Assembly: GCA_026770025.1 (NCBI GenBank)
Contig: JAMXDE010000009.1
Span: 905,001 to 969,000 of the forward strand
DNA from: Craspedostauros australis
Lineage: Eukaryota; Bacillariophyta; Bacillariophyceae; Mastogloiales; Achnanthaceae
Length of the DNA stretch: 64,000 bases
Direction: 5' to 3'
Shown: positions 3,365-46,161 of the stretch, in pieces
How the letters are laid out: each line of letters starts with the position of its first letter
Position numbering within the stretch: position 1 is the first letter of the stretch
Made by a program: the position numbers and the translations under genes
The notes under the pieces: generated by a model
The model's input: the letters and a program-made list of their open reading frames with translations, nothing else
Told to the model about the DNA's origin: nothing
Database searches by the model: none

Positions 3365-3810
3365 GGCACCAAATTGACGTCAGTCCAATCCGCTGCTCGA
3401 CCAAAGTGCCCGATTTTGCGATTGCATTTGCGTTGGTAGTAGTATGAGAGCGCGAGTAGATATGAATCCATGTGACGATGATGGCAGCAGTGATGACAGC
3501 GCAGGTGAGGAAGAGGACGACGACGAGGAGAGGGCTTGGCAACACCACACAACGCAGCACAATTGTGTCGCGCCATGCACGACTGAGCTTCTCAAAGCCA
3601 CCAGTAAGCGAAGATATTCGACTCATTCGAACCAATCGAAGCACGATTGATCCCTATGTCGTAGAACGAACGGCTTCGCACGACGCCCTTAAATAAGCAG
3701 CATTCACGAGAAGTTGAGTGCCATCGTAGTGTCGCGGACACTGTGACAATTGCAAAAAACCAAATGATTCCAACAGAGGACTTTCGCACGAACAAGCTGT
3801 GTGTCACACT
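3365..3810. other. Intergenic: 5' side of the DTW gene to the transposon
   Basis: Presumed promoter and leader of the minus-strand DTW gene. No coding region supported. The last six bases before the element, CATAAG at 3811-3816, are the left target-site duplication of the transposon. Confidence 0.5.
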
Positions 3811-3816
3811 CATAAG
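3811..3816. repeat. Left target-site duplication (CATAAG)
   Basis: The hexamer CATAAG lies directly outside the left inverted repeat and recurs at 17375-17380 directly outside the right one. The inferred empty site is a single CATAAG between cacact and tgtgcag. Confidence 0.7.
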
Positions 3817-3853
3817 ACCCGCCTGAGCGAAAATAGTACACCTTTCTCGGGAA
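3817..3853 (+). repeat. Left terminal inverted repeat, 37 bp
   Basis: Begins ACCCGCCTGAGCGAAAATAG and is identical over all 37 bases to the reverse complement of 17338-17374. Similarity stops sharply inside, where both flanks become AT-rich and unrelated. Confidence 0.8.
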
Positions 3854-5497
3854 CGTCGTTTCTGTGTTGAAAATAACTGCATATATCTCTTCTCCTACAT
3901 CAAATACATAATATGGCCAGAACTAGAATTGTTCCGTCCAATCATTTTAAAGTTATGGAGGGTTGAAAATCATGTCAAATCTACGTATTAGGTGAATAAC
4001 GCACAGACGCCAAAGTGCTCATTGACGCTTCAATTTAGTCGCAGTGGTCATTCGTCCCAAAACAGTCTTTTTTCTTCCGTCGTTTGGGCTTTGTTCGCGA
4101 TTCTTGAATTTCCGGAGAGTGACTTTACCTTGTGCTCACACAGAATCGTTGGTGTGAACACAAAACTGTTGTTGCATGGAGAGTGATATGATGTATCATA
4201 TTGTGATGCGGTGCGATGTGCAATGGGCCGTCAACCAGGATGGTAGGCACAGTCCTTGTTCCTCTTCCTCCTGTCTGGTATGTCAGAGTGGTAGCAAGGG
4301 GGCTGCAGGGGCTGCAATGCATGAGACGCATACGATGCAAGTTGCGCAGCGCTGAATTGGACGATGTGAATTGCTGGTGCCAAGATGGAAATGGACAGCA
4401 CCCTCGCCACAGTCCTGTACGCAGTGGCAACCCCAACCCACACATATCTAATCCAGGTCTTGACCCTCTGGCCCCCTAATCCCATCCCTAACCCTAACAT
4501 TGAATAACTTCATGGCTCTGTCTGAGTAATGTCAGCCACATGCAGTTGCCTCCCTCGTCTCTCCCAAGTTGCCGAAACCCCAGCCGGAACCCTAACCCCA
4601 ACCCCAACCCCAACCGGAACCCCAACCCTAACCCTAACTCTAGCCCTGAGCAACTGCTTCCCTCGATCCCTAACCCTAACCCAAGCCAGAACCCCAGCCC
4701 TAACTCTAACCCTGAGCAACCTCATGACTCTGTCTGAACAACGTCATCTGCACACAGTTACCTCCTCCGTCGCTCTGGTGTTGCCCTTGTCGCGACCTCT
4801 TGCTTTTCTCCCACTTTTTTGTTTCCTGCACTGTTTCGATCCATTTCAACGGTCGCCGTTCCAGCGTTTTTTATTCGATTTCACAATTTTTACAGTTTGT
4901 TTCGTCGAAGGTATCCTCCAGAACGTCCTTTGAACTCTTTGGCGCCAATGAAACTGAATCAATATTGTCGATTGTGATTGCGGTATCCGGACAGACGCCA
5001 TATCTGCTGAATAAAACTTGGCACGTTGGCTCGAAGGCTTCGTTGAGAATCTCAACGCACGAGCCATCCAAAGAGACAGACTTGGACAAACAAAGACAAG
5101 AAACAAGTCAACACGAGAGACGAAAGGGGCCCTGTGTTGACTGGTGGGAAACATCGCGTCGCGTGGCTTCGCATCATCACCGTTGCCATTTCCATTTCCA
5201 TCGGCATCCCTTGGCAACCGCACGAGTACCATACTCGCTCGCCATCATCTTTTTTCAATCAAGAGCATCATGCACAAGCACGTTCATCTTCTGAAGTGCT
5301 TCATCCCACGCCCAACTGGCATCTCTCATTGCGTCGATCAATTGACCGATCGCCGCTCGTGCCTCAGTTGGTGGGTTGTACCGTTACGGTCACGCATTCC
5401 TGCTTGTGCGACCGTGACAATTCCAACGCATCACAACGCATCACAACGCATCACAATGCACCGCAATGCACCACAGCGCACCACAACCCAAAGAGAA
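3854..5497. other. Left arm of the transposon, non-coding
   Basis: AT-rich subterminal sequence to about 4100, then the telomere-like tract listed separately. A 72-codon minus-strand frame at 4871-5089 (starts MSKSVSLDGSC) has protein-like composition but no family I recognise. The rest holds only short overlapping frames. Positions 5420-5490 are an imperfect GCATCACAAC / CACCACAACG repeat. Confidence 0.45.
4474..4725 (+). repeat. Degenerate telomere-type (CCCTAA) repeat tract
   Basis: Many CCCTAACCCTAAC, CCCCAACCCC and variant units occur at 4480-4500, 4585-4650 and 4670-4715. A unit containing TCATGGCTCTGTCTGAGTAA at about 4512 recurs diverged at about 4722, so the tract looks like two copies of a roughly 210-bp subtelomeric-type unit. 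The basic unit fits the TTAGGG telomere repeat. It lies inside the transposon, so it is interstitial. Confidence 0.6.
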
Positions 5498-8338
5498 ATG
5501 AACATGGCAGACGATCCCTCCATCTCGGTGGAGGATGAGGATAGCAAATCTTCCATGAGCTTCGTCTCCAAGGCCAACGAGATGTGCCTCAACACGCTCG
5601 GCGATCGCACCAAGTCCAAGACCAGATCCTACAAGTGCGTCGTCGACGTCCTTGAGGCGGATGACAACATACCCTTCGTGAGCAAGATGGGGACGGATGC
5701 AGCAGGCAATGACATGCTCTTCAATCTGTGGAAGGATTCCAAGGTAGGTACAATGCGCAATGCACAATACACTGCACGAATGAGCTGAAGAAGCTCTGCA
5801 AGTATTCCATGGTATGCATCGCGCTCCTCACACACAGAACAACATTGCATTCTAGTCTCATATATTATTCTCATATTCTGTTGTCTTGCTTCACTGTTCG
5901 CGTCATCCTTCCAACCAACAATCCTGCATCCACATCGACATCGTCCACACTCCAAACACTGCAGAATCAAAAAAGCGTCTGGCGCAAAACAATGTTGGCG
6001 TCGTATCAGACCAGCAACCCCAAATGGACCAAGGTGATGGATCTGGACCACTTTGCCAGAAAGGAGAAGATGCTGTGGAAGTGAAAGGGAAGCCGGGTGC
6101 TTCCCAGAGCAAGAGATCCAATGTCGCAAGACGGCAAGCTCATCACGCACGCACTTCTCAGTTTGTCACAGGGCAGCACGGACTCCGTCATCCTCAGGGA
6201 ATTCGATCTCGTCAAATCCGCATTCGTCACCGACAGGCCATTCTCAATACGGAAGACAAGACCAGAGCCTGCTACAAAACAAGGAACATCCTCCTGGTCG
6301 GGGCGGATTTTGGTTCTTCGTCTCTCACGAGGGCGGGATACCCCAGGACGATCCGCGAGTGGGTGAGAGGCACGGATCTGGCATCAGCGTCTGTGGTCCT
6401 TGAAGGTGAAAAGTCTGACATCGCAGTCTCAGCCAACGTCGACAATCAGAGGGTGCGCAGCGGGGGTATCTACAAAATCTGCACGAGGGCCATCGCCTAC
6501 CAGACCACCAAATTCTGGATACGGAGGTCAAGTACAAGCACATGCTGCCGCCCAGACAACATACCAGAATCGAGACAGGAGATCCGCCGGATTTCAAACC
6601 GTTGCTTGCACCAGAAGATTCGGATATCGATTTCGGTGGCACCGTTCTCATGATCCCATTGCAATCCAACTGGTCACCTGAGGGTGCCAAGGAATTCAAG
6701 GCTGGATCCATCATCTACATCAACGCGCACAAATTCGTCAGTATGGACCGGCCTATCGGATACATCAAACCCTCTTTAAACCCTCCGACTACCTCCTCCG
6801 CGAAAACTACACCGTCACAAAGAACCACCTCATCCTCATGCTCATTGGTAACGTCAGATCGAAGCTGGAATTCTATCAATTGGAGGAGGAGGCTAACAAG
6901 CTGCGTTTGGTGGGAGTCGACAAGCGGCCACGAATCGCCTCCGCCAGCGTTTGATCTGCGCATCCCTATGAGAGCAATCGATTCTGGACCACGACCACCA
7001 GATACACAGAACCAACCACGCTGTGGCTTGGCGATGCATCCGTGTTTGATGGCGAAGACGAGAAGATGATGAAGCGGGTCGACCCAGAGGTGCACCTTGG
7101 CAGCAAGCTCAAATCGCTACCGAGTCAATTCGATTCGAAAGGTTTGGACGTCATGCAACGCATCGCAGAAAGCAAGGACGGCACTGATGCTCTGCACATC
7201 ATCATGTCGAAGAGGCGTCCCCACGAACAAGCAGACCCACCTTGCTCTACGCCTATGGTGCCTTTGAGGTCGTGTCGGTCCGCATTACAACCTGCAACAG
7301 GTCTGGAATGGTGGGAATGTGGCGGCGTCTGCGCGGAAACCAACATGTACGGTGGCGGAGCATTCGGTCCAGGCTGGCATCAGGTGAGTGACAAGTGTTG
7401 TTGATGTTGCTGCTGCTGCTGTGTATGATCGTGTTGTACACTTGCGCATTTGCACCTGGCATGTGCGCGGCGCAGAGCAGACCAAAAAATCAGGAATGGA
7501 AAGCGTGCACAAAACAGGCGCATTGAAGGAGTACGACTTTCAGAGATTGTGGGGACATATGCCATTGATTCCTTGATTCTATTCCATTCGTATTCCCACT
7601 TCAATTCACATCATACTCACAATTGAATCAATGTCCGATTGGTTGGCATGATATGATATGATACGAACTGCGCCCATTCTGTGGTACTGCTCGCACACAC
7701 TCTCATCCCGAATGATGGACTCCACTCCAACCATCCGTCTGAATTGCTGCAATATCGTCTTGCTGGAGGCCGCGGTGCACGAAAAGCGTACCAAACCACA
7801 CAAAGACTTCATCGCAGCTGCTGAGGATTTGATTTCGTCGAAGTATGAAAAGCCAAAACATTGGTCATCCACGGCAGATCCGGCGGAGGATTGGTGGTGC
7901 GGATGCTTTCGTGATGCTCCTGAACTGTTCAGCGCGGTGCGTTGGGCAGTCGACCCATGTCATCAAGCGGTCAAAGATCTGCATTCGGACGATGCACCGA
8001 TATGCGCGACGAATTTGGATCCGGACGCGTCCGATTGGAGGTGTTCATGAAGTAGATCTCGCCGTACCACAACATCAAATAGGATCCAAAGTTTCTACCA
8101 ATCCTATTCACTGCCGCACGAACGATGATCGGATAACCCAGCGCATGCACGCAAGATGGTGAAGAAGCTGTGGAGCCTGGTTCAGGGAAAACGATGGCTG
8201 TCATAATACGATGAGAATGTGGAGGGCGGGAACGATCTGCATGCAACGCCGAAGCAGGACGCCTTCATGACTGCGCTGGCGTACGATTTCATGTTCATGA
8301 CGTTGCCAAAGAATGCCAAAAAGTCAGCTGACGAGTAA
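5498..8338 (+). pseudogene. Decayed prolyl oligopeptidase (S9A family) gene
   Basis: A first exon from ATG 5498 reads into NEMCLNTLGD, DVLEADDNIPFVSK and MLFNLWKDSK, with donor AAG|GTAGGT at 5744. A second begins at 5965 with NQKSVWRKTMLASY and PKWTKVMDLD. Family-typical fragments follow in order but in changing frames: SVILREFDLVKSAFV (about 6180), TTLWLGDASVF (about 7020), KSLPSQFDSKGLDVMQ (about 7110), MYGGGAFGPGWHQ (about 7345), HKDFIAAAEDLISSKYEKP (about 7800), GRSGGGLV around the nucleophile Ser (about 7880), and YDFMFMTLPKN with a stop at 8336-8338. This matches the bacterial-type prolyl oligopeptidase layout of N-terminal propeller and C-terminal alpha/beta hydrolase, about 690 aa. 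At least six frame changes or stops break it, so it is not functional as read. Whole locus lies within the transposon. Confidence 0.8.
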
Positions 8339-8652
8339 TGGACGGGGTTTGGATTGATGCACGCAGTGGTCTAATCGTGTATCATACCATACATAGCAAG
8401 CACATGTGCGAATTGAGTAGATGCACGGCGATGGTGGTTCCATTGTGCATGTCAAGATCATAGCAACCGATAACATCAGAGCCACTCTATACATACCAAC
8501 AACAGCTTCCTCTCGTAATCCCTGTGGACACGCAGTTACTGCAGTTGATATCGCCATGCTGCAAGTTGATAGTATCAATGTGACACAGAGTATAGTATCG
8601 TAGAATAGAATGCAATATAATAATGTTGGCATACTCGCGGCGGTCGTCAGGA
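8339..8652. other. Gap between pseudogene and transposase
   Basis: No coding region seen. Presumed 3' side of both the plus-strand pseudogene and the minus-strand transposase ORF, which converge here. Imperfect ATAGTATCG/TATAATA motifs at 8570-8625 could be termination or polyadenylation context, but nothing specific is recognised. Confidence 0.4.
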
Positions 8653-11600
8653 TCAATCATCGGAAGGTAGCAGGTTGCCATCAATCACATCAGCGTCCTG
8701 CCCATCGTATGGGCGATCATCCAGAACCTGCTCTTCGTGCGCTTCTTCGCTTTGAGTGTTCTCCTTGGATGCCATGATCCGCAGTTCATGCATCTCGTTC
8801 AGGCACTCTTCGCACTCCTCGTCATCCAAGTAGCCATTGTTCTCAAGGTATCTCTCCGCTCGACCGTCAGGAGCTGCCAGGAAGCATTTCAGGTACGTGA
8901 TGTCCACCTTGATCCTCTGCTCCCAATCAAGCAAGAAAGGCCCGGCCATCAGCTCTTCGTGAAGCACATGAGCGCTCCTCCTCGTGTCCGGGTTCCTGCA
9001 AGCAATCGCAGCATCGCACACGATCTGCGCCACTTGTTTCGACATGGACGGTACCTTGGTTGCCGGACGTGCTGATGGATCCTTCTTTCGTGAGGTGGCT
9101 TTGTCTGGGTGGCAGATCGCCCATCCCTGCCTGATGGATTGAGGGAAGTCCACTGTGGCATTTCCTTCACAATTTGCCGTTTCTGCTGCCGCTGCTGGTT
9201 CCAGAACACGCGAAGTGAGAACGCGCTTGAGCATGTCAGTTTTGCTGGTGCTCTTGTTTGTTGTTGTTGCGTGTCGTCGCTCAGTCGGTTGTGAGCTGCG
9301 GATATTCTGTGGATCCATCACAAATGCCGGTGGGACCTCTGTGATGTCCTCATCATTGCAAGTGACATCGAGATGGAGAATGTCAAACTTGTCGATCTTG
9401 TCCTGAGTGATGGTCTCTGGATGCGTCAATCCCGATGATGCTGTGACCTGAATTTTGTCATCAATCAGATCAATTTGATGGGTGGCGCGAACGGAAACTC
9501 GGTTGGTCGCGAATGCTTTTTCCTTTCCGTCCACATCGCAGATGATGGCATGTCCCAATCTGCTCAGATCCAACAGAAGCGTTGTTGTCCCCTTGATGTT
9601 GGCAGCTTTCAGCACTTTGAAAACATCGCCTTCGGTGGCAATCTTTGCGTCCCTGGCACTGTCCACATACAACCTGAGTTGACGTGAGACAAAACCGAAG
9701 TGTCCGTCCAAAGCACTCTTGCCAGCTTGTGCCTCAGTGTACAGCCATTGGATGATTTGGAGTCGTGGTTTGGGAGGGCGGGTTCCGGTGTCTTGCTGTG
9801 CTTTGGCCTTCGTGGATGATGCAGCCTTCGCGTCATGATAAGATGACTGCTCGGTGTTGATTTTGGGGGGAGGTGGATACTTAGCCTTGTCCTTGTGCTT
9901 GCCCTTGTTCTTGGCTGTTGTCTTCCGCTTCTTCTTCTTCTTCTCCGGCATCGTGTATTCAACTTCAACCTGTCCCTGGTTTAGTCCATGCATGTACCTC
10001 ATCAGTGCCGGACTCGCGAAACAACTGGCATTGTCGCTTTGGAATACGACCTCTTTGACCCCCTTGTGAAGCTTCGGAAGCACGGTAGAATGAAGAATCT
10101 TGATCGCACCAGCAACTTGGACATGATCCTGTTTGTTCCGCCCCTTCATCACCATGTCAATGAATCGGTACTCGAACTTACCGTTCTTGTATTGGATTGT
10201 CATGACACCAAGGAGAGACATTCTGTTTTTTCCGAAGAACGCTTTCTGAGCTTCCTGATTCTCTGTTGGGAGGATGCGTTGCTTGTGATCAAGCACGGCA
10301 ATGATGCGATCTGGGTGGTCCTTGAGGCGCTCCTTTTCCTCCTTGATCTTCTGCGCTTGTACCTTTCGTCTCACTTGGTGGGCCATGTACTGGCGCAGCG
10401 CGTCATCACACAGGTTAATTGCTGCAGCCATGCGATCCAATTCAAACGTGTTGCCAGTGATGCTGTTGGTGGCAGTTTTCATGAAGTTGCGAACACGAAT
10501 CGGGAAAAACGTCATGACATCTGCACATTGCTTGCATGCTTGGTTCACAAATGGGAGGGAGCCTTTTGTCAGTGCGAACTCTGCGGAATGTAGATTATCC
10601 GTTGTTGTCTTCACCTTGAGGTGCTTGTTCGCGTATTCCCATTTTGCAAATGAAAGAACAGAATCACTGTCCGTGATGATGGCCTGTGCCTCATCAAGAA
10701 GTTCAGACGCGAGTTCTTTGTCTTGATGTTCCTTGTTCTGAGTCCGAAGCAGTTCCATGACTCTCTTGATCATGCTTTGGAAGTGCATGAATACAGTCAG
10801 AGTGTCTGTGTAGAAGGAGGACAGGCCAGTTTGACACTTGCCACGTCGCGTGAGCAATGTCAGGATACTCCTGAAGGCAGGCATACCAACTGGGTCATCT
10901 GTTGTGTTCTTGTACTTGGCAAAGAGCTGCTCTTCTGATATTGATCCGCGAATGAAGATGGGCAGGTCTGGGAACAGAACACCAGCCAACTTGACACTCC
11001 TTGTGATGCCTGGCCGGTACTGGAACATGGAAGTGAGAAATGAGACTACGCCCTGGAGACTAGATTCCTTGACACGGTACTTGTAGTCTGCGTGTGGGAA
11101 CTGGCCTCCAGCAAGGATCGCACCTCCAGCGTGCGACAGTCGCCTGTGTCCTGTACGAGACATGGTTCGGCGTCCAAGCTTGACCCTCACCTTGTCTCCT
11201 TTCGACAAGCTACTGTAGTGCGCGGCCAGGATTCGGGTGCAGCGCCTGGAGTCACAGGTCATTGCCAAAACCGCACGAGCAGTCAGTGATAGTTCTTGAT
11301 TCCCCCAGAAGGCTAAATGACAGAGAGTCTGCTCCAGCAACACAGGAGGGAGCTGTTTGCGATGTCGCACGAAGGTCATGGCTTCTGAAAGCTGTTTGGG
11401 GGGTTCTCTGCCAGGAAACATGTGCTGGGTTGACCCACCACAAACTCCATCCCAGACTCGGTTGATGAGACTCCAACGACCAGTCGCTGTCTTTCGTGGG
11501 AGACGTTCAAATCCATCCACATGGAACCGTGAGAGGGGTTTGATGCTAATGCCAGCTGCTTCAAAAATGGCTTGCAGCACTTCTCTTCGATTCACCTTGC

Positions 11601-12297
11601 CCTCGTTGGCTGGAACGAACGCAGCATCGGTGTCATCCTCACTGGTTGTACTCGCACAATCCGACTCGCACTCTTCCATAGACACAGCGACATCTCGTCG
11701 CGCGAGCACATCATCTCCTGCCTGTCGATGTGGCGCCCTGCATCTGGTTGCTGATGATTTGCGCTTGGGACGTGTTGGCGCAGCAGCACCACCACAAGTC
11801 CCAATGGAGAACGAATTGGCCTGTGGTACAAAGGCATTCACACCTGTGTGACGTGCACCTCTGCTTATGGATGATGCGCAGTTTGGGCAAAATGGTGGCC
11901 TACTGCAGTGACTGCAGAACAGGGTCAGACATTGCTTGCAAGGCATGATACCAAAGCAGTTGGGACCCATGTAGTTGGAAGTGGGAGTTGCCATGCTGTT
12001 GTTGGGATGGAATGTAGAGTATGGTAGACCACCCACGCCTGTACCGATGTAGCTGGGGATGCAAAAGGAAGGAGGTTGTATGTTGGGAGGGACATGATGA
12101 TTCGCAACCATGGGGAGAGGAGGACTGTGAACGCTGCCATGGTGGTTTGGTCCGACATGTGCAGAGTATTGGTACGATGCGTAGTCCCCATGAGGTGGTT
12201 GGTGATAGATGGATGTGCCAGCAGTTGCTGTTTGACGCTGCACCTTTGATTGGGATGGATTGGGGTCGCTGCTCGAATCCTCGCGTGGACGGGTCAT
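8653..12297 (-). CDS. DDE-type (RNase H-fold) transposase-like protein, 1214 aa
   Basis: The frame is open from 12576, but residues before the Met at 12297 read like translated leader, so ATG 12297 (MTRPREDSSSDPNPSQ) is preferred. Around residues 117-138 is a cysteine cluster of four CxxC/CxC-type pairs (CKQC, CSHC, CPNC), a likely zinc-binding DNA-recognition module. The catalytic core pattern is D670 in AVLDHKQRILP followed by FGKNRMSLLG, D755 in FQSDNASCF, and E855 in YTEAQAGKSALDGHF. The blocks FGK-x-(G/N)xS, SDNA-x-C and E/D-x-Q-x-GK-x-xxD occur together in uncharacterised transposase-like proteins of many eukaryotes. A Lys-rich insert (KKKKKRKTTAKNKGKHK) lies between the second D and E, and the C-terminus is acidic. 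The frame is intact although the neighbouring cargo gene is decayed. The exact superfamily is not identified. Confidence 0.65.
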   Translation of the reverse strand: MTRPREDSSSDPNPSQSKVQRQTATAGTSIYHQPPHGDYASYQYSAHVGPNHHGSVHSPPLPMVANHHVPPNIQPPSFCIPSYIGTGVGGLPYSTFHPNNSMATPTSNYMGPNCFGIMPCKQCLTLFCSHCSRPPFCPNCASSISRGARHTGVNAFVPQANSFSIGTCGGAAAPTRPKRKSSATRCRAPHRQAGDDVLARRDVAVSMEECESDCASTTSEDDTDAAFVPANEGKVNRREVLQAIFEAAGISIKPLSRFHVDGFERLPRKTATGRWSLINRVWDGVCGGSTQHMFPGREPPKQLSEAMTFVRHRKQLPPVLLEQTLCHLAFWGNQELSLTARAVLAMTCDSRRCTRILAAHYSSLSKGDKVRVKLGRRTMSRTGHRRLSHAGGAILAGGQFPHADYKYRVKESSLQGVVSFLTSMFQYRPGITRSVKLAGVLFPDLPIFIRGSISEEQLFAKYKNTTDDPVGMPAFRSILTLLTRRGKCQTGLSSFYTDTLTVFMHFQSMIKRVMELLRTQNKEHQDKELASELLDEAQAIITDSDSVLSFAKWEYANKHLKVKTTTDNLHSAEFALTKGSLPFVNQACKQCADVMTFFPIRVRNFMKTATNSITGNTFELDRMAAAINLCDDALRQYMAHQVRRKVQAQKIKEEKERLKDHPDRIIAVLDHKQRILPTENQEAQKAFFGKNRMSLLGVMTIQYKNGKFEYRFIDMVMKGRNKQDHVQVAGAIKILHSTVLPKLHKGVKEVVFQSDNASCFASPALMRYMHGLNQGQVEVEYTMPEKKKKKRKTTAKNKGKHKDKAKYPPPPKINTEQSSYHDAKAASSTKAKAQQDTGTRPPKPRLQIIQWLYTEAQAGKSALDGHFGFVSRQLRLYVDSARDAKIATEGDVFKVLKAANIKGTTTLLLDLSRLGHAIICDVDGKEKAFATNRVSVRATHQIDLIDDKIQVTASSGLTHPETITQDKIDKFDILHLDVTCNDEDITEVPPAFVMDPQNIRSSQPTERRHATTTNKSTSKTDMLKRVLTSRVLEPAAAAETANCEGNATVDFPQSIRQGWAICHPDKATSRKKDPSARPATKVPSMSKQVAQIVCDAAIACRNPDTRRSAHVLHEELMAGPFLLDWEQRIKVDITYLKCFLAAPDGRAERYLENNGYLDDEECEECLNEMHELRIMASKENTQSEEAHEEQVLDDRPYDGQDADVIDGNLLPSDD

Positions 12298-12947
12298 GAT
12301 GCGATAGCGATGGTGGCTGACGGACGATGTGGGTGGGGGGAAGGCACGGATGATTCTGAATGATCTCGATGTTGGGGAGCACTGAGCGTTGCGCTGACAT
12401 TGCAGATAGGAGAACACAGCAGACAGCAACAACAACACACAACAAACCAAAATGACACATGCACATTCGTTCACAACAGCATGAGGGATGTGTTTGTGTC
12501 GAGATCGGCAGCAACAGTTCAACGGTCGCTCATTGGTGCATACGTGGTTGTGATTGGAGAATGTATGTGGAACCATCTGCGATTTTTATTCTGGCGAAAG
12601 AGTGAGTGTGACGCAGCGCCAACACAACGAGAGAGCAAGTGCAAGAGAGAGAGAGAGAGCAACAAGTGCTACATCAATCCGTCTGTCCATTCATTCTCTA
12701 TTGATTTTGTCTTTTTATTCTCGTCGATTGTAGCCTCAATTTCTCATCATTTGCATTGGCATCGTGAGAGACGATCGAGTGTGTATCATGATTACGTCCC
12801 TGGTGGCCGAACGCAACCCGGTAGAATACAATCGATCTGTTCTTCGTTGGCTGCCATTTGGAGTTGTGTTGGCTGTCGGCGCCGATCGTCTCAGATGCGA
12901 CGATTGAAGTATCCGCAGTGAATGGGCAAGAGTACAGTTGTTGGGTG

Positions 12948-13018
12948 TGCGATGTGTGGTGTGTGGTGTGTGGTGTGTGGTGTGTGGTGTGTGGTGTGTG
13001 GTGTGTGATGTGTGATGT
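12948..13018. repeat. TGTGTGG minisatellite
   Basis: About ten tandem copies of a 7-bp unit (TGTGTGG, with TGTGATG variants at the right end). Simple-sequence repeat inside the transposon. Confidence 0.85.
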
Positions 13019-13170
13019 GAGTTCGCTGGGGGCGGACATTCTGTTCTGCCTGTTGCTTTTGATTGGTGCGTCGGAGATTGGGTGGCTGGTCCATGAATCT
13101 GTCATTTGTGATCCCATCGTGTTGTTTTCTTGATTTTCGGATATACTTTGGTTCTTCGTTGTTCGTTTGT

Positions 13171-13209
13171 TAAATGTCGTTCGTCCTCGTGAGCAACAAA
13201 CGACATTTA
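13171..13209. repeat. Perfect 11-bp hairpin
   Basis: TAAATGTCGTT at 13171-13181 is the exact reverse complement of AACGACATTTA at 13199-13209, with a 17-nt loop. It sits about 870 bp upstream of the transposase start. It could be an internal inverted repeat or a protein-binding site; function unknown. Confidence 0.6.
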
Positions 13210-13337
13210 CACTGAACCATTGATGATTCCCATCCAATCAGATTTGACCGAGGTGCGCCAAATTCACAACAACAACTCCCACACCAAACCCACATTTTCG
13301 ATCAAGACACCAAAACTGGATCGGGCATCGACCAAGG

Positions 13338-16300
13338 CATGCAGTGTATTGTCGAGTATGAGACAAGTAGAAGACGCCAAGTCGATCTTCGAACCATGAT
13401 GGAACCGCAAAAGCGCAGCGCTCACAATGGTGCAGGAACGCGTCCGTGGTTCCACATATTTCAGGAGCCGCTACAATTTGTCCACTGCCGTCGCTGATCG
13501 TCAACTCTGTTGGTTGAGTCGTTGGCCTCGTGATACCAAGCGGTAGGAAATCTTGCCCCGCACCATCTCCAGCATCTGGGCCATCCGCAAACCTGCGTAA
13601 CCATCTGTATCAATTCCATGTGTATCTCCTTCCATTGGTGGAATTCGAAAAGGCCAACACCACACGGATCCGCGAGCAATTGAAAGTCAACACACAGTCT
13701 GCCGGAGTCCGGAGCCCTCGCAAGAGGATTGCGAGCAACATCAATTCGGAGCGTGTAGATCGCTCAGGCACAACCTCCCCTTTCCCATCAGCCGGACACC
13801 ATGCATTATTGCGCAATACGAATGGTTGATGCAACTGTAATGGCATAGACTCACCTCAATCGTGCATGACACTGACGATGCCCTCCAGAAGGTGCATGAC
13901 GACGGAGAGGAATTTGCATGGGTATGGATTTGGTCGGATAGAAATAGCACCAGACGTAATTGCGAAATAAAAATTGGACGACTACAAAGTAAACAATGAG
14001 GCGGAGGAGATGAGAGTGGTTCGTCCCTCCAGACGTCGAAACTGATAGAATGCGTGATGGAAACGTTCAGGTGAGGGTGCAAAAATGTTAGTGCGAAGAA
14101 TAACACGGGGTCCCTACATAGGTATGCTTTTGTTGGCATAGGAATAGCACCAGGCGGAATTGCGAAATAAAATTGGACGACTACAAAGTAGACGACAAGG
14201 CGAAGAAGATGACGCCAGTCCGGGCATGTGGCTGTCGAAACCGATGGAGTCCGTGAACGCAGCGGAAAGGGGAAGATGTTGCAACTTTATCGTGAGAAAT
14301 AAGACGAGAGAAAACGAGAATCCGGCAACACAACGCGCCGAACTAAAAATAGCACAGAGTGAATCGTATGCATTGTATTGGTGGGTGGATATGTCGGAAG
14401 CGTTGAAATCAAGGTATGGAGTTCATCCAACGGAGAGGATCGTGCAAAGGATGAATGCAGTAATGTTTGCAAATGTGCTACCCACGCAACAACATCGTAT
14501 ACCACTATTGAAAAATTCAGTCGATTGATTTGGGAGAAAATCGGGGAACCAGAAATTGGACACAGAGGGCCCAAGGCAAACAAGGAGCCGGCACGGCACA
14601 ACCCCAGGTTGCGGCTCTCACACTCCTGCGCAAGCCAGAGTGGGTATGATGGTGCTGTCGTACACTGTCTAGTGTATGAACATACCTATCGTTCAATGAT
14701 AAGAATCTAATCAGTGGATTGCTAGAGTCGGCACAAGGTGGGCACCTGCAGCATAGACACAGAATGCTACCTGGACACCATCGCCGCCGACACCAAGCGC
14801 CATGCCGAATGGAATAAGGTTCTTGAATGATCGATTCCAAATGCTCTGCTCCAAGTACAATGCAATCTCCATGATGCTGGTAACATTGTCTGGTACAACT
14901 GGACTGACTCCAAGAGCAAATGTGCTGACTTCTGCCCATGAGCTAATTGGTGACTTGCGCCATTCCCTTTCACAGTTGCGTGTAGCAATTTGTGGCTGCA
15001 CGTACCGGCGTTTGCTCCGCGTATCTGCACCATGTCCTGCGATGGTACCAATACGGCGACTATGGTTCGTCGCCAAGTGTGTCGATACGGTATCCTTGGG
15101 ATGATCACAGCTCGCTCCATCCATCCATTCGTCAATCTATCCAATACGTATGGTACTGGTATTAGTAGCATGTCGTGTCGTGTCGTGTCGTATCGGAAAG
15201 TCACGAATGTAGTTTGGAGTGTGCGCGATTTGTCGCTCGACTTGTGAATTGGGATGCGCAGTTCTCTTGCAAATGGACACCAGTTTCCGGCGCAGAGCAG
15301 TGGCTCACATTTTGCTCTCACGCGAACACCAGTCAATCGCGGCGAGAGGACGAGTACACGCCATCAATTCGAAAATGTTTGTGCTTGCGAGGAAATCGGA
15401 ACAAGCTCTCAGCCTCATCCACACTACCTCATCCGTTAGTATGGCACTATTGTTTTATTGCTCAGAACATCCCATCCATCTGCCCCGACGCTTTCCGTAC
15501 AGATGATCACCACCAGCTTCTCGTCTATCGCTCATCCAACAACCGCTGGGGGAGACAACAAATCGCATCCGCCTGTGGAACAGCGTTCACCAATCATCAA
15601 CCGCCAGTGCCATTCATGGTTGGCGCCGGCTGTTGCTTGCTCTGTGACCACCCAGACTGCCACGAACGGCCCCAGCAGACAACGGAGAATGATGACGATC
15701 AGCGAGAGCGAGTGATGATACCAAATCCATGGGCGCAAAAAAAAAATCGCACGCGCATGTCAGTATCGGTGTCGTCGCCAGGAGCAAAATTGGAGCTGTG
15801 TTTCCACAGCACCAAGAGGGATTGTTATTCGAAGCAACGCTGCTGTCAAATCAATTCAAATACCCTAAACTCAATCCACAATATGGCGTCCAAACGGTCA
15901 GCACATCGTTGTTCCTTGTCTTTGATCCACGCCAACTCTGGAGACGATAACGCACCATGGAACTGATCGTCATACCTATCTCATGAGGGTAACAATGCTG
16001 ACAATCCTCGCGCTCCAAGTCTGCCTGCGCTGCTGACCACCAAGCGCGCCTTGTGGATGCAACACCATCGTTGACGGTTGGAATTGACGGTGGAATGTTG
16101 ATTCTGCGGAAGTCAACCGATCCATCACAAGATCTAACCTGATCAGCCTCCGATGTGCAAATAATACAAATGTGGGCATGTACGATAAAAACAGATGTAT
16201 TATATGCGATACTGCTGTACTCCCCTTCTTGTGTTCAGTGCGGTACATCATTCTGTTCTCGCAGAGCCACTCCGCAGTTTTGTGGCGCTCCAGAAACGAT

Positions 16301-17337
16301 TCCGTGGGGAATGTGTATCAACAGGCACAAAGCAGTCCAGAATTCGCGAGCGCAGTATCTGATTTGGTTTTGTTCCATGCATGTTTCCACCAAAACACCA
16401 CATCTCACGTCTGTCTGTCCACCGACATCTGAAAAAGTACACAGCGATTCTTTGGGTGCGACATGAAAAAGAACCAGGAAAAGGAATGAAACGTGATCAA
16501 GAAAAGAGCAAAATGAAGCCACAAACTTCCACAACAGCAACAAGACTCCGAAATCCTCCAGAAGAGGCGCAACGAACGGCGACTCGGCAACTCAGCAACT
16601 CGAGAAGAGCACAGCAGAGCACAGCAGCGTACATCAGGAATGTGCCGTAGTCGCCACCGGCCAACTTTGATTCGCAGGATGGGAACGTTATCCTCCTGTA
16701 CCTCTCTTGTCACAGAGTCTCGTGCCCCTTGTATGCAATGAGAGACCACACGTGGAACGCGCGAGATCATGGTGCGACGAACCCGGCAGTGATCACAGTT
16801 CCCGCGCTCGCGAAGTGCAAGCAGCATCAGCAAAAGCAAAAGTAACATCCCACTATACCTGGTGGAATATACTGATAGCTCTGCACCTTCATCCCATCCT
16901 GATGTCGTATGGCACAGCGCAGTGCACGTACGTACCATCGCATGCTGGTGCAGTTTTGCTCCTCACCTATTGTTCCAAGTCCACCGCGAGAAACTGCGTG
17001 CAATCAATTGGGGCCAAAAACAGCCGAAATGTGGGCCCATTTGCACGACTGTAGACACGTCTGAGGGCGGCTTCGAGTGCCTTGCTGTGAGTCCGTCTGA
17101 GAGAGGAAAAAAGAACATTTTCGCCGCTCGCCGACGTCCAACTTGAAGACAATGACGAGTCGCATCCATGTCCGATCGAAAGCTAAAAACCTAAAGCACG
17201 GGCTACTGTGGGGAATTTCTCAACTCAAGCCCTCATAACTTATAAAATATAAAGTTTAGCAATTCTAGGAAAGTCAATCCGTCACTTTCTCATAGAGAGG
17301 AACATCATATTAAATTTATAGGGAAATCTGAGAGGAC
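13338..17337. other. Right arm of the transposon, no confident gene
   Basis: Four kilobases of overlapping short frames. A frame at 14160-14528 (without an early ATG; contains SESYALYWWVDMSEALKSRY) and a minus-strand frame at 14711-15124 (contains GMALGVGGDGVQVAF) look more protein-like than the rest, but neither is recognised and neither has clear exon boundaries. Positions 17200-17337 are AT-rich like the left subterminal region. These may be remnants of further cargo. Confidence 0.4.
13919..14320 (+). repeat. Diverged 200-bp tandem duplication
   Basis: GAAATAGCACCAGACGTAAT (13941) matches GGAATAGCACCAGGCGGAAT (14141), followed in both by TTGCGAAATAAAATTGGACG-like sequence and ACTACAAAGTA. 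Similarity continues weakly through GTCGAAAC(T/C)GAT. The period is about 200 bp, two copies, clearly diverged. Confidence 0.65.
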
Positions 17338-17374
17338 TTCCCGAGAAAGGTGTACTATTTTCGCTCAGGCGGGT
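17338..17374 (-). repeat. Right terminal inverted repeat, 37 bp
   Basis: Exact reverse complement of 3817-3853, ending ...CTCAGGCGGGT at 17374. Confidence 0.8.
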
Positions 17375-17380
17375 CATAAG
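17375..17380. repeat. Right target-site duplication (CATAAG)
   Basis: Same hexamer as 3811-3816, abutting the right inverted repeat. Confidence 0.7.
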
Positions 17381-18245
17381 TGTGCAGCAACAAAACCAAC
17401 CATCGACAGAATCACGGAAGAATAACACGCTCTACTTCGGCGGTGCACGCTTTCATCGCCTTCCAAAAGTCCACGAAGCTGTCGCCGCTTTGACCAGTCA
17501 CCCAACGAAATCGTGTTGGAAATGAGCGGGGCACAATCAGAACACCACGGAAAGAAACCAAGCAATTCAAAATCGAAATGGAATCGCTGGAACAAACAGC
17601 ATGAATGCGTTTTAATCCATCTTGTCGGATCTCTCTCGCTGAAATGCAGGAGAGGTAAAAAATGAACACATTGACAGTTCCGTAAAACTAAAAATATAGA
17701 TTGCCTCAACGTAGACTTTGTGTCTCCTTTGTCATGTGATGGTAAGGGTTCTGAATATGTGGTCGGTTTTCCAAGGATCAAGGAAAGGTTGACGTGCTTG
17801 ATTACGTAGTGCTGGTCGGCTCACTCGCCTGTAACTGCACAAAGTTACAAGCGATAACTCTCTCACGACCAGAATTGCTCAAGCACAAACCAAGAAATCC
17901 AACGGACGCGAGAAACAGTCACCCGCATGCGACCAGAGCAAGACAGCGGCAACCAGTCGTGAATTCAAATTGGCAGTATCTGAACTCGCACAGCACGAGC
18001 TTTGGTTCCGCCCCTCGGCTCGCGCCTGGGTAGGGAACCGAGTGGCGGGCTTTGTATCAACAGTTCTCACACCACAACAGCGCCTCGAACGTCGCCTACT
18101 GCATGCCATCGCTCGTATCCCATTACATTGCGTTGCAGTTCTTGAGTCTACCATAATAGTGCTGTGTAAAACATACGAATGCATATAATACCACACACAC
18201 TGATACAGGCACGCCACACCACAACGCTGTCAACAAAGTAACAGA
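17381..18245. other. Intergenic and promoter region of the glycosyltransferase gene
   Basis: No coding region supported. A TATA-like CATATAATA at about 18181-18189, some 60 bp before the ATG, could be the core promoter of the glycosyltransferase gene. Confidence 0.4.
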
Positions 18246-22607: not shown

Positions 22608-22721
22608 CAATTTCCAGATGGAACCAACTTCCGGAAGAAATTGTCACAGCAAATAAACCACGAATAAACAAATTGAAGACAAACACCAAACAGCAAAAAC
22701 AACCAGTAGAACAACGACGAA

Positions 22722-25334
22722 ATGACGACGACGAGGAGCAGCAAGATGACGCGTCCAACGGGCCAAATGCCGATGGAAGCGTATGTCAGAGGCGGCATCA
22801 ACAGCAACAAGGCGAAGAGCAACAGACCAGGAGGAGTAGAGGAGAAGACAGGGCAAGACGCGACGACGAACGGGGGCAAACAGGGCGAGAAAGATGGAAA
22901 GCAAGGACGAGGCGTTCGCAAGGTAGAATGCGCCGCAGGCAAGTACTGCAAGGGAAGAGGACAGGCAGCAGCAGCTGTGCGATGCATCATGTGCGGTGTA
23001 CCGGCGCACAGGGAATGCAGAGCATGGATCAAGCCAGAAGAAGGCCTGGTGACACCAAGAGGATTCCCAGTGGTGTGCACACAGTGCATCGAAAACGACA
23101 ACATCACAGTGCAGGCAACGAAGGCAGGGCAGCGAAGTGTTGGAGCAGCAACAGAAGCAATACGCAAAGCGTTGAGCAAGAAGTGGGGCAAGATGAAGGA
23201 GATCAAGGCAACGAAGGACAACAAAGATAAGGACAATAGAAAGCAAGATGGAGAAGAGGCAGGGCAACGACGTGACGGGACAAGCGGAGGAACGAACAAA
23301 CCAAAGGAAGCGAAAGGAGGAGAGGACACGAGCAGCGACGAAGAGAACGAATGGGCGGACACGTGGGAAGAAGGAACCGGAGGGGACAACATGGCAGCGG
23401 AAAAGGGAGAAGAGACGGCAGATCAAGGAGGTAGCAAGAAAAGAACGGAAAGAAGCCCGCGACACTCAACGGCGGTGGAGCTGCCAGCCAAAAGAACGGA
23501 CTTACGGGACGAGGAGCCAGAGGCGGAGAAGACGCAGGAGAAAGCACCGGAGGACGATGAAGAGACGACGAACATCATGCCAGCGACACCACAGGCAATT
23601 GGAGAAATCAGGCAGGACAACATTCACCCAACAATGGATTGTGACGATGAAACACAAGCTGGAAGCAACGAGAGCGGGATTGGAAGGAGCCGAGCACGAG
23701 AACGCGAAGCAATCGAGACACGCTACTGCGATGTACAGATGATGATCGAAGGCGGAGATGGTGCCAACGACGCAGGCACGGCGATCGACGCAGCTATTGC
23801 ATCATGCAAAGAGTTCCTACGATCAATCCAACGGGTGAACGCAACAGCAAAATTGCTGCCTTGGAATCCCTACGAAGACCAAACGATTGTGCACGCAATG
23901 GAGTCATTCCCAACAGATATGACTAACCTGAAAAGGTTCTTCAAAGGAGTGAGGCCAATCTACAAAGCGGCAAAAGAGAAAGGGTATTTGAAAGTCAAGA
24001 TCAAAGCGAAAGGACCTATCAGCAAAATCACAGGAGAGCTGATGGACTACTTCCAACACATAGGAGGGAGGTTTGAAGTAGCGAAGATACAGGCCCCTTC
24101 TACAACAACGCTGGGCTGGCTCCTATACTCCACTCGACAGATCGATGCAGAAGCACTGGAGGCGGAACTCACAAAGTTAGCCAAGACCCAGGTAGCAATC
24201 ACATGGAAGCGGATAGCAGACGGAGAGAAATACGATCCCAACAGGGACACGAAGAAGGACCCAAGGGCGCTTCACGTGGAATCCAGCACGGAGGATCGAG
24301 CACTAGTGGCCAAAGTACTGGAAGTGTACTACAGCACAAAGTCGAAGAAGTTCCCACTAGGAGTGAGAATGCGTATCATCACGCCATTATCCGGCATCGT
24401 CAACACAGACATGAGGAAAGGATGGTTCGAGCTACGCGAACGCCAAATGGAATGGTGCCTACACGCGGTAGCGATGACGACCTACGACATCATCCCAGAG
24501 TGCTTGCAAGAGATTCCAGACGGCTCACATCTCACACTCAGAGAGATGGTGATGTGGATCAAGTCCACCACCGGCAACGAAAAGACGCCGCTCTTCACAT
24601 CGATAGATAAGCAGTGGAGGGGCAACGGCTACGTGCTACAATTCCACCCAGACAAGACAGCGGAAGCAAGAATGGTGGTCAAAGGGCTGTTGGTCAAGTT
24701 GACTGCCGACTACGGAGAGGACGTGGAGCGACTGTTTACGTCCATGGCCCGGGTAGAAGCAAAGACGATGAAATGGGATGAGACCACAAAGAGAGTGATA
24801 TCCGAAAAAGACAAGGAAGTGGAAGCAGCCATGGAGGTCGACGAAGACATGCATTTCCAGACGACCAGAGAAGAAGATGAAGGAGACGAAGATGAAGAAG
24901 GGGAAAGAGGAGTCCCAATCAGAAGAGAGAAGGATTATGGAGATGACGACACAATCCCCTCGATGAGAGACGCAGGCGCATGGAGAAAGGTTCGGGAAAA
25001 AAGAAGCGAAAAGAGGCGAGCGGCCCAGCAAGCACGAGAAGACGAAGGGTCGACAACATCAACGATCACAGGGGCAAGTAGAAGCACGACGGGCACACAG
25101 AAGGAAAAGATGGCAGTGCTCCAAGAGCAGATGGGGAAGATTTTGGAAGCGCAAGCTCAAGGATCAGTGACATCGACATTGTCGGGAAGTACCGGGCGAA
25201 CCACCGGAACTACGCGAGCGCTGATGGCCGCCATGCAACAGCAAATGGAAGAGTTGAAACAGCTGGTGGTAACCACGAAAGCAGAGAACGAAGCGCTCAA
25301 GGCGGCAGAAAAGCCGGGAAAAACATTGGAGTAA
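22722..25334 (+). CDS. LINE ORF1 protein with PHD-like zinc finger
   Basis: 870 aa. Residues about 67-125 carry a cysteine/histidine series (CAAGKYC, RCIMC, HREC, CTQC) like a PHD/RING-type cross-brace finger rather than the CCHC knuckles usual in LINE ORF1. A long charged, low-complexity segment (Glu/Lys/Arg-rich) follows to about residue 330. A conserved-looking globular part (LLPWNPYEDQTIVHAMESFP onward, about 385-700) comes next, and the C-terminus has a coiled coil (LQEQMGKILEAQAQ, MQQQMEELKQLV). It probably binds LINE RNA and chromatin or nucleic acid. ORF2 starts 42 nt downstream of its stop. Confidence 0.75.
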   Translation: MTTTRSSKMTRPTGQMPMEAYVRGGINSNKAKSNRPGGVEEKTGQDATTNGGKQGEKDGKQGRGVRKVECAAGKYCKGRGQAAAAVRCIMCGVPAHRECRAWIKPEEGLVTPRGFPVVCTQCIENDNITVQATKAGQRSVGAATEAIRKALSKKWGKMKEIKATKDNKDKDNRKQDGEEAGQRRDGTSGGTNKPKEAKGGEDTSSDEENEWADTWEEGTGGDNMAAEKGEETADQGGSKKRTERSPRHSTAVELPAKRTDLRDEEPEAEKTQEKAPEDDEETTNIMPATPQAIGEIRQDNIHPTMDCDDETQAGSNESGIGRSRAREREAIETRYCDVQMMIEGGDGANDAGTAIDAAIASCKEFLRSIQRVNATAKLLPWNPYEDQTIVHAMESFPTDMTNLKRFFKGVRPIYKAAKEKGYLKVKIKAKGPISKITGELMDYFQHIGGRFEVAKIQAPSTTTLGWLLYSTRQIDAEALEAELTKLAKTQVAITWKRIADGEKYDPNRDTKKDPRALHVESSTEDRALVAKVLEVYYSTKSKKFPLGVRMRIITPLSGIVNTDMRKGWFELRERQMEWCLHAVAMTTYDIIPECLQEIPDGSHLTLREMVMWIKSTTGNEKTPLFTSIDKQWRGNGYVLQFHPDKTAEARMVVKGLLVKLTADYGEDVERLFTSMARVEAKTMKWDETTKRVISEKDKEVEAAMEVDEDMHFQTTREEDEGDEDEEGERGVPIRREKDYGDDDTIPSMRDAGAWRKVREKRSEKRRAAQQAREDEGSTTSTITGASRSTTGTQKEKMAVLQEQMGKILEAQAQGSVTSTLSGSTGRTTGTTRALMAAMQQQMEELKQLVVTTKAENEALKAAEKPGKTLE

Positions 25335-31082: not shown

Positions 31083-34000
31083 TCATTCGAATGTTCTCGA
31101 TGTGTCAAGGTACGACTTCTCATGTTCACGTTGCAAGTCGGCCTTGATGTTCTTGGTGAATCCGTCGCTTGTGGTCTGCTCGGATTTGACAAAAATGATT
31201 TCGATGGTTTTGTTGATTACCATGTTCCTCACGTAGTGATGGCGCACGTCTATGTGCCGCGATCGTTGGGATGTCGATGGGTTCTTGGCGATGAAGATTG
31301 CTCCGATGTTGTCCACACGGACCTTGATCGGTGTCTTCACTGGGACGCCCACACTTTCGAGTAGCTGCATCACGAAGAAGATTTCCTTTGCCGCTTCGGA
31401 AAGGGCAACGTATTCTGCTTCGGATGAGCTGAGTGTGACGGCCTTCTGTGCCTTGGATCGCCAAAGGATTGGTACCTTGCACAGGTATAGGATGAATCCC
31501 CCTACGCTAATTCTTGTGTTCTTGTCTCCTGCATATTCGCTATCGCAGAAGAGCTCCATGTCCCAGCCGTCGTCATCTGGACGCGCTGGATGGATCTTCA
31601 ATCCATAGTCCTTTGTATCGATCACATACTTGATGATCCGATACATCTCCTTCATTGCAGCCTTGGTGGGCCCGATCAATACCTTGGAGAGTTCCCTCAC
31701 AGGGTTCGCGATATCCGGTCGCGAGTGCTTGATGAGGAAGAGTAGCATACCGACGCCTCGGCGATATTCGGCATGTTCTTCCGGTCCGACCTTCTGCAGT
31801 CCGTTATCTTCGGATGGTCGTACGATGATTTGACCCGGGGTTCCCGGTGTCCCGTAGCGTTGCATCTTCTCAACCTTGGTTCCGAACTCTTCGATTAGGT
31901 GTCGGATGAGATGTGGTTGACGCAATGTCGCTCTAGTCTTGTCATGGTTCAGTTCGATGTTGCAGCTGAGGTAGTCTCCGAGTCCGCGCTCGATTGTCAC
32001 CTTGAACTTGCTGCCTTGAATATCCTTCAGGAAGGTCTCCAGTGCCTTGGAGTCTCCGCAACAGAAGCAATCGTCCACGTAGATGGCCACGATCATGCTT
32101 CCTTCGTTCGTCTTCCTGTAGAACAGGCACGGGTCTGCTGCGCTCTGTTCGAAGTTGATATTCTTGAGGGTCGATACCAACATCTTGAACCATTGCCTGG
32201 CGCTCTGTACAAGTCCGTAGATTGGCTTGTGTAGGGTCAGGGCTTCGTCTGGTTGATGATCCATCCCATTGGGACAGTTCATGTAGATCTCCTCGTCGAG
32301 GTCTCCATGTAGGAATGCCGTTACGACATCGACGAGTGCGCAGTCCATCTTCTTGATTAGCATGATCACCATCATGACTCGATAGGTCACGTCATGAATG
32401 ACGGGTGAGTAATGCTCTTGGAAGTCTACTCCTGCGACTTGTGAATAGCCACATGCAACGAGCCGTGCTCGATGTGTGCCGTCACGCTTCAGCTTGAAGA
32501 CCCATTTGCACTTGCAGCATCTGCGGCCGCGTGGGATGGCGTCTCGTTTGATCTTGCTGTACACCTTGCGTGTATCCATGGAGTCGAACTCCTTCTTGAT
32601 GGCTGCTCGATATCCCTTCCGATGGATAGGATCTGGATGATTGAAGGCTCCGTCGAACGTTGTAGGTTCGATGTGCTTCTCTGGTTCCTTGTTCTCGTCC
32701 TGCATCGACAATCCGATGTCGATCGCTGGTGATTCGGTAATGATTGCATTCATTCCGTATAGTCCTGTTGTGCTATGATGAGTGATCTCGATCTCTTCAT
32801 TTTCGTCTTCGATTTCTTCATCATCTGTAGTTTCGTTGTTGGAATCGTCGATCATCTCGTCGCTGAGTTCGTCACTCGCCTCGTTGGATGATGGATCGCT
32901 CTCATAGCCTTCTTCCTTTCGACCTCGTTCGTTGAAGTCTGCGAGCTCACGCAGAGCTCTGGGAATACTCTTCCCAGCAGTTGTCTTGGGATTAACTTCT
33001 CCCTTCCTGCCTCGTGCTTCGTGACGTCGGATCCTCTCCTTTCTAGCTATGTCACGCTTGTTTGGTTTGCTCGGTGGAGATCTGGATAGTGTGTCATGTG
33101 TAGATCTCGCTGGTGTGTTCGGAGGAGTGACACCTGTCTCGTCATCGGCTTCGTCGCCGGAGGGTAGGATTTCGTCATCCTCATGATTGGATTCGCTCCG
33201 ATTTTCCTCGTCATTCTGGATTAGTTGAGTCACTGCTCCGTTGTTCTCATTATCCTCATCATCGCTGTCTGATAGGATGTAGTATCTGTTGCTGTCAGCA
33301 AAAGATACTCTCTTCGCTTCCGATGTTTGACGCGTTGCCGTCCTTGGCGTTGCTCCCTTCCGTCCGATGGTTGTGAAGCCGTCTGCGTCCGTTGTTCCTG
33401 TTTCATTGGATATGTTCGGTGCTGGTGCCCAGCCACGGAACTGTCCGTATGATTGGTTGAGCCACTTGATGTCCCGTGAACAGATGAGTGACTTGGTCGA
33501 TGGTCTGTACATGTTGTAGACCCCTGATGCATGTTGGTGTGCATATCCGATGAACACCATCTCTTCTCCTCTGTTCTTGAGTTTGGCGGTGATCCCGCCG
33601 TAGGTAGTCTTCACAACACCCACCTCTCCAAACGTGCGGAGTGCATCCGCATATGGTGGATCGTTGCTGAAGAATTGTCGATGTGGTGACTCCTTCTGGT
33701 TCTTCGCTACGGTGATGTTGGCGATGGCGGTGGCAGTGCTAGCAGCTGCTGCCCACAGGCCATGCCTATATTCTTCGTCGAGCTGTGCTCCGTTAAGCAT
33801 GGAGCGGATCTTGGTGTAGAGGTACGCGAACTTGCGTTCCACTCTGCCGTTCTGTTGCGGCGTGTTCGATGCCGTGTATTCGAATTTCACGTTGAGTCCT
33901 GCATCGATGAGAATATCCTCCGTGGATTTGTTCTCTCCGCTATTGTCACCTCGGAAGGTGATCTGTTGGTCACCAGTCTGTGACTTGATCGTTTGAACGA

Positions 34001-44243: not shown

Positions 44244-44244
44244 A

Positions 44245-44248
44245 CCAG
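44245..44248. repeat. Left 4-bp target duplication of fossil B (CCAG)
   Basis: CCAG precedes the left LTR and recurs at 50838-50841 after the right LTR. The uninterrupted first copy of fossil A has a single CCAG at the matching place (near 37110). Confidence 0.8.
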
Positions 44249-44543
44249 AGAGCGAGTTTTAGGGTCAAACGAGTCGCGTAGCTCGTATTGGTCAAAGATT
44301 CTATGACCGTACAGTCACAAGCAACCGAGGCGGAATGTTTGTGGCTGAAACAACACAGGGGAAAAACAAACAAACAGAGCATGTGTCTTTGTTGGATTCA
44401 TGGCGTGCGGTCACAATCTGGTTCACAACAAGGAGTGTATCAGCAATACACCAACAACAAATAAGCAATAGAAGACTGTCATCTGTGTGCCTGCGAGTGC
44501 TTCATTTCGCGTCCTGAGCACGCAAGCAAGCCAGAATCATTCG
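44249..44543 (+). repeat. Left LTR of fossil B
   Basis: 295 bp, AGAGCGAGTTTTAGGGTC...CAGAATCATTCG, same as 50543-50837. Confidence 0.88.
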
Positions 44544-46137: not shown

Positions 46138-46161
46138 TGGTGTTGGCGAGAGTGCACGTTA

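Follow-up and report, generated by a model that had tools for sequence, protein, structure and literature searches.

What is the 13.6-kb stretch that lies between two perfect inverted repeats in the window (the whole 64,000-nucleotide stretch of Craspedostauros australis DNA analysed here)? A sequence-only reading had taken it for a large DNA transposon of unknown superfamily with 37-bp perfect terminal inverted repeats (TIRs), a 6-bp target site duplication (TSD) and mostly decayed contents. Comparison with the rest of the same 74.8 Mb assembly (90 contigs) bears out the large DNA transposon: the stretch belongs to a multicopy family of large transposons that moved recently, with many other copies and empty sites in the same genome. 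The prospect that no second copy with the same ends would turn up, which had been named as grounds for giving the idea up, was removed by these copies. The features of the element are listed in Table 1.

We observed that the inverted arms extend over 47 nt when the flanks are counted in (3807-3853 and 17338-17384, 94% complementary). The perfect part is 38 bp long, starts with GACCCGCC and has the terminus GACCCG. The G precedes ACCCG at every end with no more than one mismatch to the repeat, and the termini of the element are GA..TC, i.e., RR..YY. The 37-bp repeats described earlier are thus real and perfect, but one base short, as the terminal G was missing from them.

For 23 of the 25 end pairs read, the 4-bp flanks were identical (counts per subfamily are in Table 1). 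These 23 duplications were ATAA in ten cases, TTAA in five, TTAT in five, ATAT in two and GTAA in one, with the central TA invariant in all of them; for example, copy C7 has the flanks ATAA/ATAA, and C59 has TTAT/TTAT. The two unequal pairs, C2a (ATAA/TTAT) and C38 (TTAA/ATAA), count against our explanation. The 25 pairs exclude partnerless or badly diverged ends (C9, C23, C30, C62, C64, C84, two on C1 and the C38 cluster) as well as the partial C12 and C71 copies. Three subfamily-1 pairs (C4b, C2d and C38) had altered outer repeats, starting with GACCCCGG.

A 6-bp TSD, CATAAG, is ruled out, since the flanks of other copies match only over 4 bp outside the G. This hexamer does adjoin ACCCGCC on both sides of the element, but it is not the duplication, which is ATAA: at the left it arises from a chance C before ATAA and the element's first base, G, and at the right from the element's last base, C, and a chance G after ATAA. 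With a TSD of 4 bp, the comparison with Polintons, Dada and IS3EU made earlier falls away.

Table 1. Features of the element in the window (positions are those of the window; a dot marks features given without strand).
Feature	Position	Strand	Basis
Whole element, 13,560 bp	3816..17375	.	Ends and interior common to 7 other full copies
Left TSD copy, ATAA	3812..3815	.	Flanks same over 4 bp in 20/22 subfamily-1 and 3/3 subfamily-2 end pairs
Left TIR, 38 bp, perfect	3816..3853	+	Inverted-repeat comparison
Right TIR, 38 bp, perfect	17338..17375	-	Inverted-repeat comparison
Right TSD copy, ATAA	17376..17379	.	4-bp flank comparison
Decayed second gene, fragments in shifting frames	5500..7404 (approximate)	+	Codon phase, gaps, stops
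Intact ORF, likely DDE/D transposase, 1,214 aa from ATG	8653..12297	-	dN/dS, stop-free copies
Three CxxC knuckles, residues 120-140, possible zinc-binding part	11878..11940	-	Unchanged in 9 aligned copies
D670 codon, candidate first catalytic residue (VLDHKQ)	10288..10290	-	Same in 9/9 copies; end of predicted strand, low confidence
D755 codon, candidate second catalytic residue (QSDN)	10033..10035	-	Same in 9/9 copies; just after predicted strand, low confidence
D864 codon, candidate third catalytic residue (GKSALDGHF)	9706..9708	-	Same in 9/9 copies; choice inferred
E855 codon, alternative third catalytic residue	9733..9735	-	Same in 9/9 copies

The left end (window positions 3812-3980) had at least 28 long matches in the genome among the 40 candidates scored of 53, and the right end had at least 30 among the 40 scored of 51. 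For one end of subfamily 2, the long matches numbered at least 21, with 2 partial ones besides. A 25-base end pattern matched at least 56 times in the 74.8 Mb at up to three mismatches, compared to no match for the reversed pattern, which exceeds what chance would give. Eight full copies, the window's among them, range from 12.9 to 22.7 kb. Those of 12.9-14.3 kb can be aligned over their full length, at ~90-99% identity in the matched stretches and with indels no longer than ~0.8 kb, while the two long copies, C36 and C29, are the same element plus nested insertions, one of which (in C36) carries identical 689-bp direct repeats. Separately, a 1.9-kb stretch with both family ends, diverged and mutated, was seen at G000:C9:1350332-1352240 (L058); it is perhaps an old internal-deletion derivative.

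The sequence-only reading had proposed a search for empty sites, and we ran it with the joined flanks of nine copies. The 40 matches scored all belonged to the sites of C4a, C32 and C37, which occur uninterrupted at no fewer than 28, 10 and 2 places, respectively, each time with one copy of the 4 bp and with 94-100% identity over ~136 bp. For six further sites, that of the window included, the assembly contained only their own two flanks and no empty site. The two sets of queries (nine and six) were drawn from 22 sites, of which seven lay outside the queries. No excision footprint was seen, which counts against our explanation. The view that the inverted repeats are a chance pair, or belong to two small elements, with ancestral sequence between them found no supporting point and can be set aside with near certainty, given that the interior accompanies the ends in all seven other full copies and that three insertion sites are present uninterrupted elsewhere in the genome. 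We also observed that the insertions at G000:C37:7850-20743 and at G000:C12, from 1945616 to the contig end, share the same 20-base left flank, and that each of the two contigs also has the site uninterrupted; this looks like duplicated or allelic assembly sequence.

The large open reading frames (ORFs) of the window's copy and of C17 are the same at 3635 of 3642 bases (7 differ) and stand between different flanks; the movement was therefore recent. The ORF is split in the same way in copies C6 and C59, which score identically and again differ in their flanks; this suggests that broken copies were moved in trans by enzymes produced elsewhere, but the shared split ORF could also come from gene conversion. 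Next to C59, a subfamily-2-like end is positioned exactly 4 bp away, which is how it would look if one element had inserted into the other's duplication.

Read from stop to stop, the large ORF has 1,310 codons, and it is under purifying selection. Its simple dN/dS was 0.23 against C32, 0.33 against C26, 0.25 against C36 and 0.35 against a subfamily-2 copy. The value against the near-identical C17, 0.59 from only 7 changes, counts against our explanation, as do three stops at aligned codons and one gap that the subfamily-2 copy shows over the window's stop-to-stop frame; read from its own ORF, that copy has no stop. Among the genome matches to the ORF (best 38 of 444 candidates scored), 21 of 39 were near full length, and 16 of these 21 had no stop, with one TGA in each of the other five. 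The codon phase of substitutions was tested in 30 blocks of 450 bases, with p values uncorrected. The signal was strongest in the ORF: of the seven blocks that span 9216-12365, all but one (11466-11915) had p<0.02, and the block 8766-9215 was not significant either. The description of the contents as mostly decayed does not apply to this intact, selected ORF, and it holds for the second, plus-strand gene.

Variability among the nine aligned copies is distributed unevenly along the protein: 242 of the 1,214 residues vary overall, compared to just 3 of 100 at residues 651-750, where D670 is located. Only 4 of 136 residues vary at 655-790, and the C-terminal stretch 1101-1200, with five, comes close to 651-750. 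The least variable stretch holds VLDHKQ and extends up to QSDN, with EAQAGKSALDGHF following ~100 residues later; the spacings between the candidate residues are 84 and 108 residues. We read the ORF as a transposase because it is the sole intact gene of a moving family, likely one of the DDE/D type with D670, D755 and D864 as the candidate triad. As for a DDD as opposed to a DDE triad, all four candidate residues, E855 included, are the same in all nine copies, and the structure models are too poor to choose. The spacing hhhDhK...FGK...NKQD...SDN...EAQxGKxxxD may resemble that of uncharacterised invertebrate proteins.

In Pfam, the whole ORF (E<=1) and its pieces (E<=10) had only weak matches below the cut-off, with no integrase model among them, and no match above the cut-off came from the 19 element ORFs scanned or from the large-ORF pieces (some short ORFs lay outside the scan). 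Nothing significant was found among PDB sequences, where three matches had E values of 0.089-0.24 and a further search had none. The same was true of the protein searches, which reach relatives sharing short words (7,988, 1,250 and 85 candidates scored, the first list possibly crowded by a lysine-rich run), and of word- and pattern-limited searches of viral contigs and prokaryote contigs.

Two structure models of the ORF were poor (mean pLDDT 42.0 and 47.5). In the single-sequence model, with low confidence, D670 closes a predicted strand and D755 directly follows a second one; the order of elements, short ones apart, is strand-strand-strand-helix-strand (also of low confidence), an arrangement known from RNase H folds. 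In the second model, three strands and a helix recur, and the strand before D755 is absent. Fold searches with the single-sequence model returned mainly acetyltransferases and gelsolins, along with the Mos1 transposase at E 0.23, and are evidence neither way. Since model confidence is low and the fold searches gave no clear answer, the catalytic assignment is putative.

The second gene lacks ~0.6 kb in five of the eight other aligned copies and in the subfamily-2 copy, and stops and frame changes were present in all five copies translated. Outside the large ORF, a codon-phase signal was confined to the blocks 6066-6515 (p=0.007) and 6966-7415 (p=0.04), values uncorrected for 30 blocks; pieces of the gene had no match in Pfam. 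Farther along, the region from 12.6 to 15.4 kb is about as conserved as the ORF in the comparison with C32 (2641/2747 bases the same, compared to 3520/3639). We did not adopt a coding gene in 12.6-17.3 kb, as this region has no codon-phase signal; the low dN/dS of some ORFs there comes from few changes. The part 12600-15400 could be a long leader, an intron or a binding region. A direct repeat of ~97 bp, with ~84% identity and 200 bp apart (13917-14013 and 14117-14212), was noticed here, and it is present in other copies as well.

We consider it very probable that the stretch is a copy of a 13-kb autonomous class II (TIR) DNA transposon with its transposase encoded at 8653-12297 on the minus strand. 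This reading builds on the observed ends, the 4-bp duplication with its TA core, the uninterrupted sites, the many insertions and the intact, selected ORF; to these it adds the ORF's presumed role as transposase, a putative DDE/D chemistry and probable cut-and-paste movement. The transposase would bind the 38-bp ends and excise the element, with cuts that separate its terminal G/C from the flanking 4 bp. The element would then enter a W-T-A-W-like target cut with a 4-bp stagger, whose repair would leave the 4-bp duplication. End binding, excision and strand transfer to a staggered target make up the ordinary DDE/D route, which would account for the ends, for the duplication and for the empty sites. 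With its intact ORFs for a likely transposase, its near-identical copies at different sites and its defined 4-bp target, the family is a good candidate for a giant transposon that still works in a 75-Mb genome. It raises the questions of how such long elements keep moving and what purpose the conserved non-coding 12.6-15.4 kb serves, and it lets one ask where the transposase belongs among the DDE/D superfamilies.

Among the known superfamilies, Sola fits best on the 4-bp AT-rich TSD, the large size and a possible DDD triad, a likeness drawn from descriptions of the superfamily. Membership in Sola is defined by significant similarity to the Sola1, Sola2 or Sola3 transposases. That the element belongs to this superfamily, and is most like Sola1 or Sola2, is a narrower form of the transposon reading, to which we would give somewhat less than an even chance. 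Sola elements are described as having a DDD transposase, a 4-bp TSD, TIRs of 11-1124 bp and lengths mostly of 2-9 kb, in some cases >15 kb (PMC10741241); AT-rich 4-bp TSDs are given for Sola2-type elements (PMC3627910), 32-bp repeats with a 4-bp TSD for one Sola1 (PMC6875170), and a length of 21.5 kb for a Sola1 of Ectocarpus (PMC12477816). The 4-bp TSD in 23 of 25 end pairs and the large size, as in the giant Sola1 of Ectocarpus (PMC12477816), speak for Sola; with the giant Sola1 of Ectocarpus and Sola2 of amoebozoa the element shares a 4-bp AT-rich TSD, large size and one big transposase, which in our case is possibly DDD. Like Sola1-1_Ec32 (PMC12477816), the element has an extra gene on the opposite strand, but here that gene is decayed and its pieces are without a ParB or methyltransferase domain in Pfam. 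On the other hand, just two of our 23 duplications agree with AWWT, the preferred target published for one group of Sola2.

A new superfamily of eukaryotic DDE/D transposons is less probable, and we regard it as rather unlikely. In its favour, no significant family match came from Pfam, PDB sequences, or the protein or prokaryote-contig searches, and the TA-centred 4-bp target, the 38-bp GACCCG ends and the wide spacing of the candidate residues point the same way. However, the protein searches reach only short-word relatives and lie outside Repbase and the eukaryote protein sets, so the absence of a match weighs little. In its full form, i.e., a new giant superfamily whose members have a ~1,214-aa transposase with an N-terminal triple CxxC, carry a long non-coding interior that is conserved and travels along, end in 38-bp GACCCG repeats and insert at a TA-centred 4-bp target, the proposal is slightly less likely still. 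The unknown superfamily of the earlier description stands in so far as the libraries searched gave no match, but an undescribed system is more than the data show: both 4-bp AT-rich TSDs and elements of very large size have been published for Sola and other giant transposons, and the general form is already known from the latter.

A Kolobok relative is improbable. Kolobok elements have a 4-bp TSD, 5'-RR..YY-3' termini and a C/DxxH signature (PMC9587614), and the element shares the TSD length, the termini (GA..TC) and, in 5 of the 23 duplications, a TTAA target. Unlike Kolobok, however, it is not TTAA-specific, those five being the only TTAA cases, and C/DxxH is absent from the 145 residues that follow D755 (755-900; the sole such motifs in the protein are at 567 and 972), a comparison that depends on the putative catalytic residues.

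Several other groups were considered. Polinton/Maverick elements have genes for a retroviral-type integrase and DNA polymerase B and are excluded by the TSD (4 bp here, 6 bp there); none of the 19 element ORFs scanned reached the Pfam cut-off for such genes, some short ORFs being outside the scan. IS3EU and Dada, with TSDs of 6 bp (or 6-7 bp), are excluded in the same way. For the Gypsy-type integrase domain of Ginger, the ORF and its pieces had no Pfam match above the cut-off and no integrase among the weak ones. PiggyBac shares a 4-bp TSD that can be TTAA, and it is ruled out since 18 of the 23 duplications are not TTAA and the termini are GA..TC, not the CC..GG given in PMC10045372. The KDZ giant elements of brown algae, as described in PMC12477816, are >10 kb, with transposases that can exceed 1,300 aa and with nested insertions; our family resembles them in length, large transposase and nested insertions, and differs in that its ORF has no Pfam match above the cut-off.

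Retrotransposon-like ORFs were also seen in the window. Two Copia-type ORFs lie side by side on the minus strand (31083-37328 and 38226-44258), the Pfam scan covering the first of them; by eye they are the same protein over most of their length, possibly a tandem or nested pair. A long ORF at 26004-30422 matches RVT_1 (reverse transcriptase) and is perhaps a non-LTR retrotransposon; before it stands an 874-aa ORF without a Pfam match (22710-25334). A different Copia-type ORF (RVT_2) occupies 46138-50379 on the plus strand.
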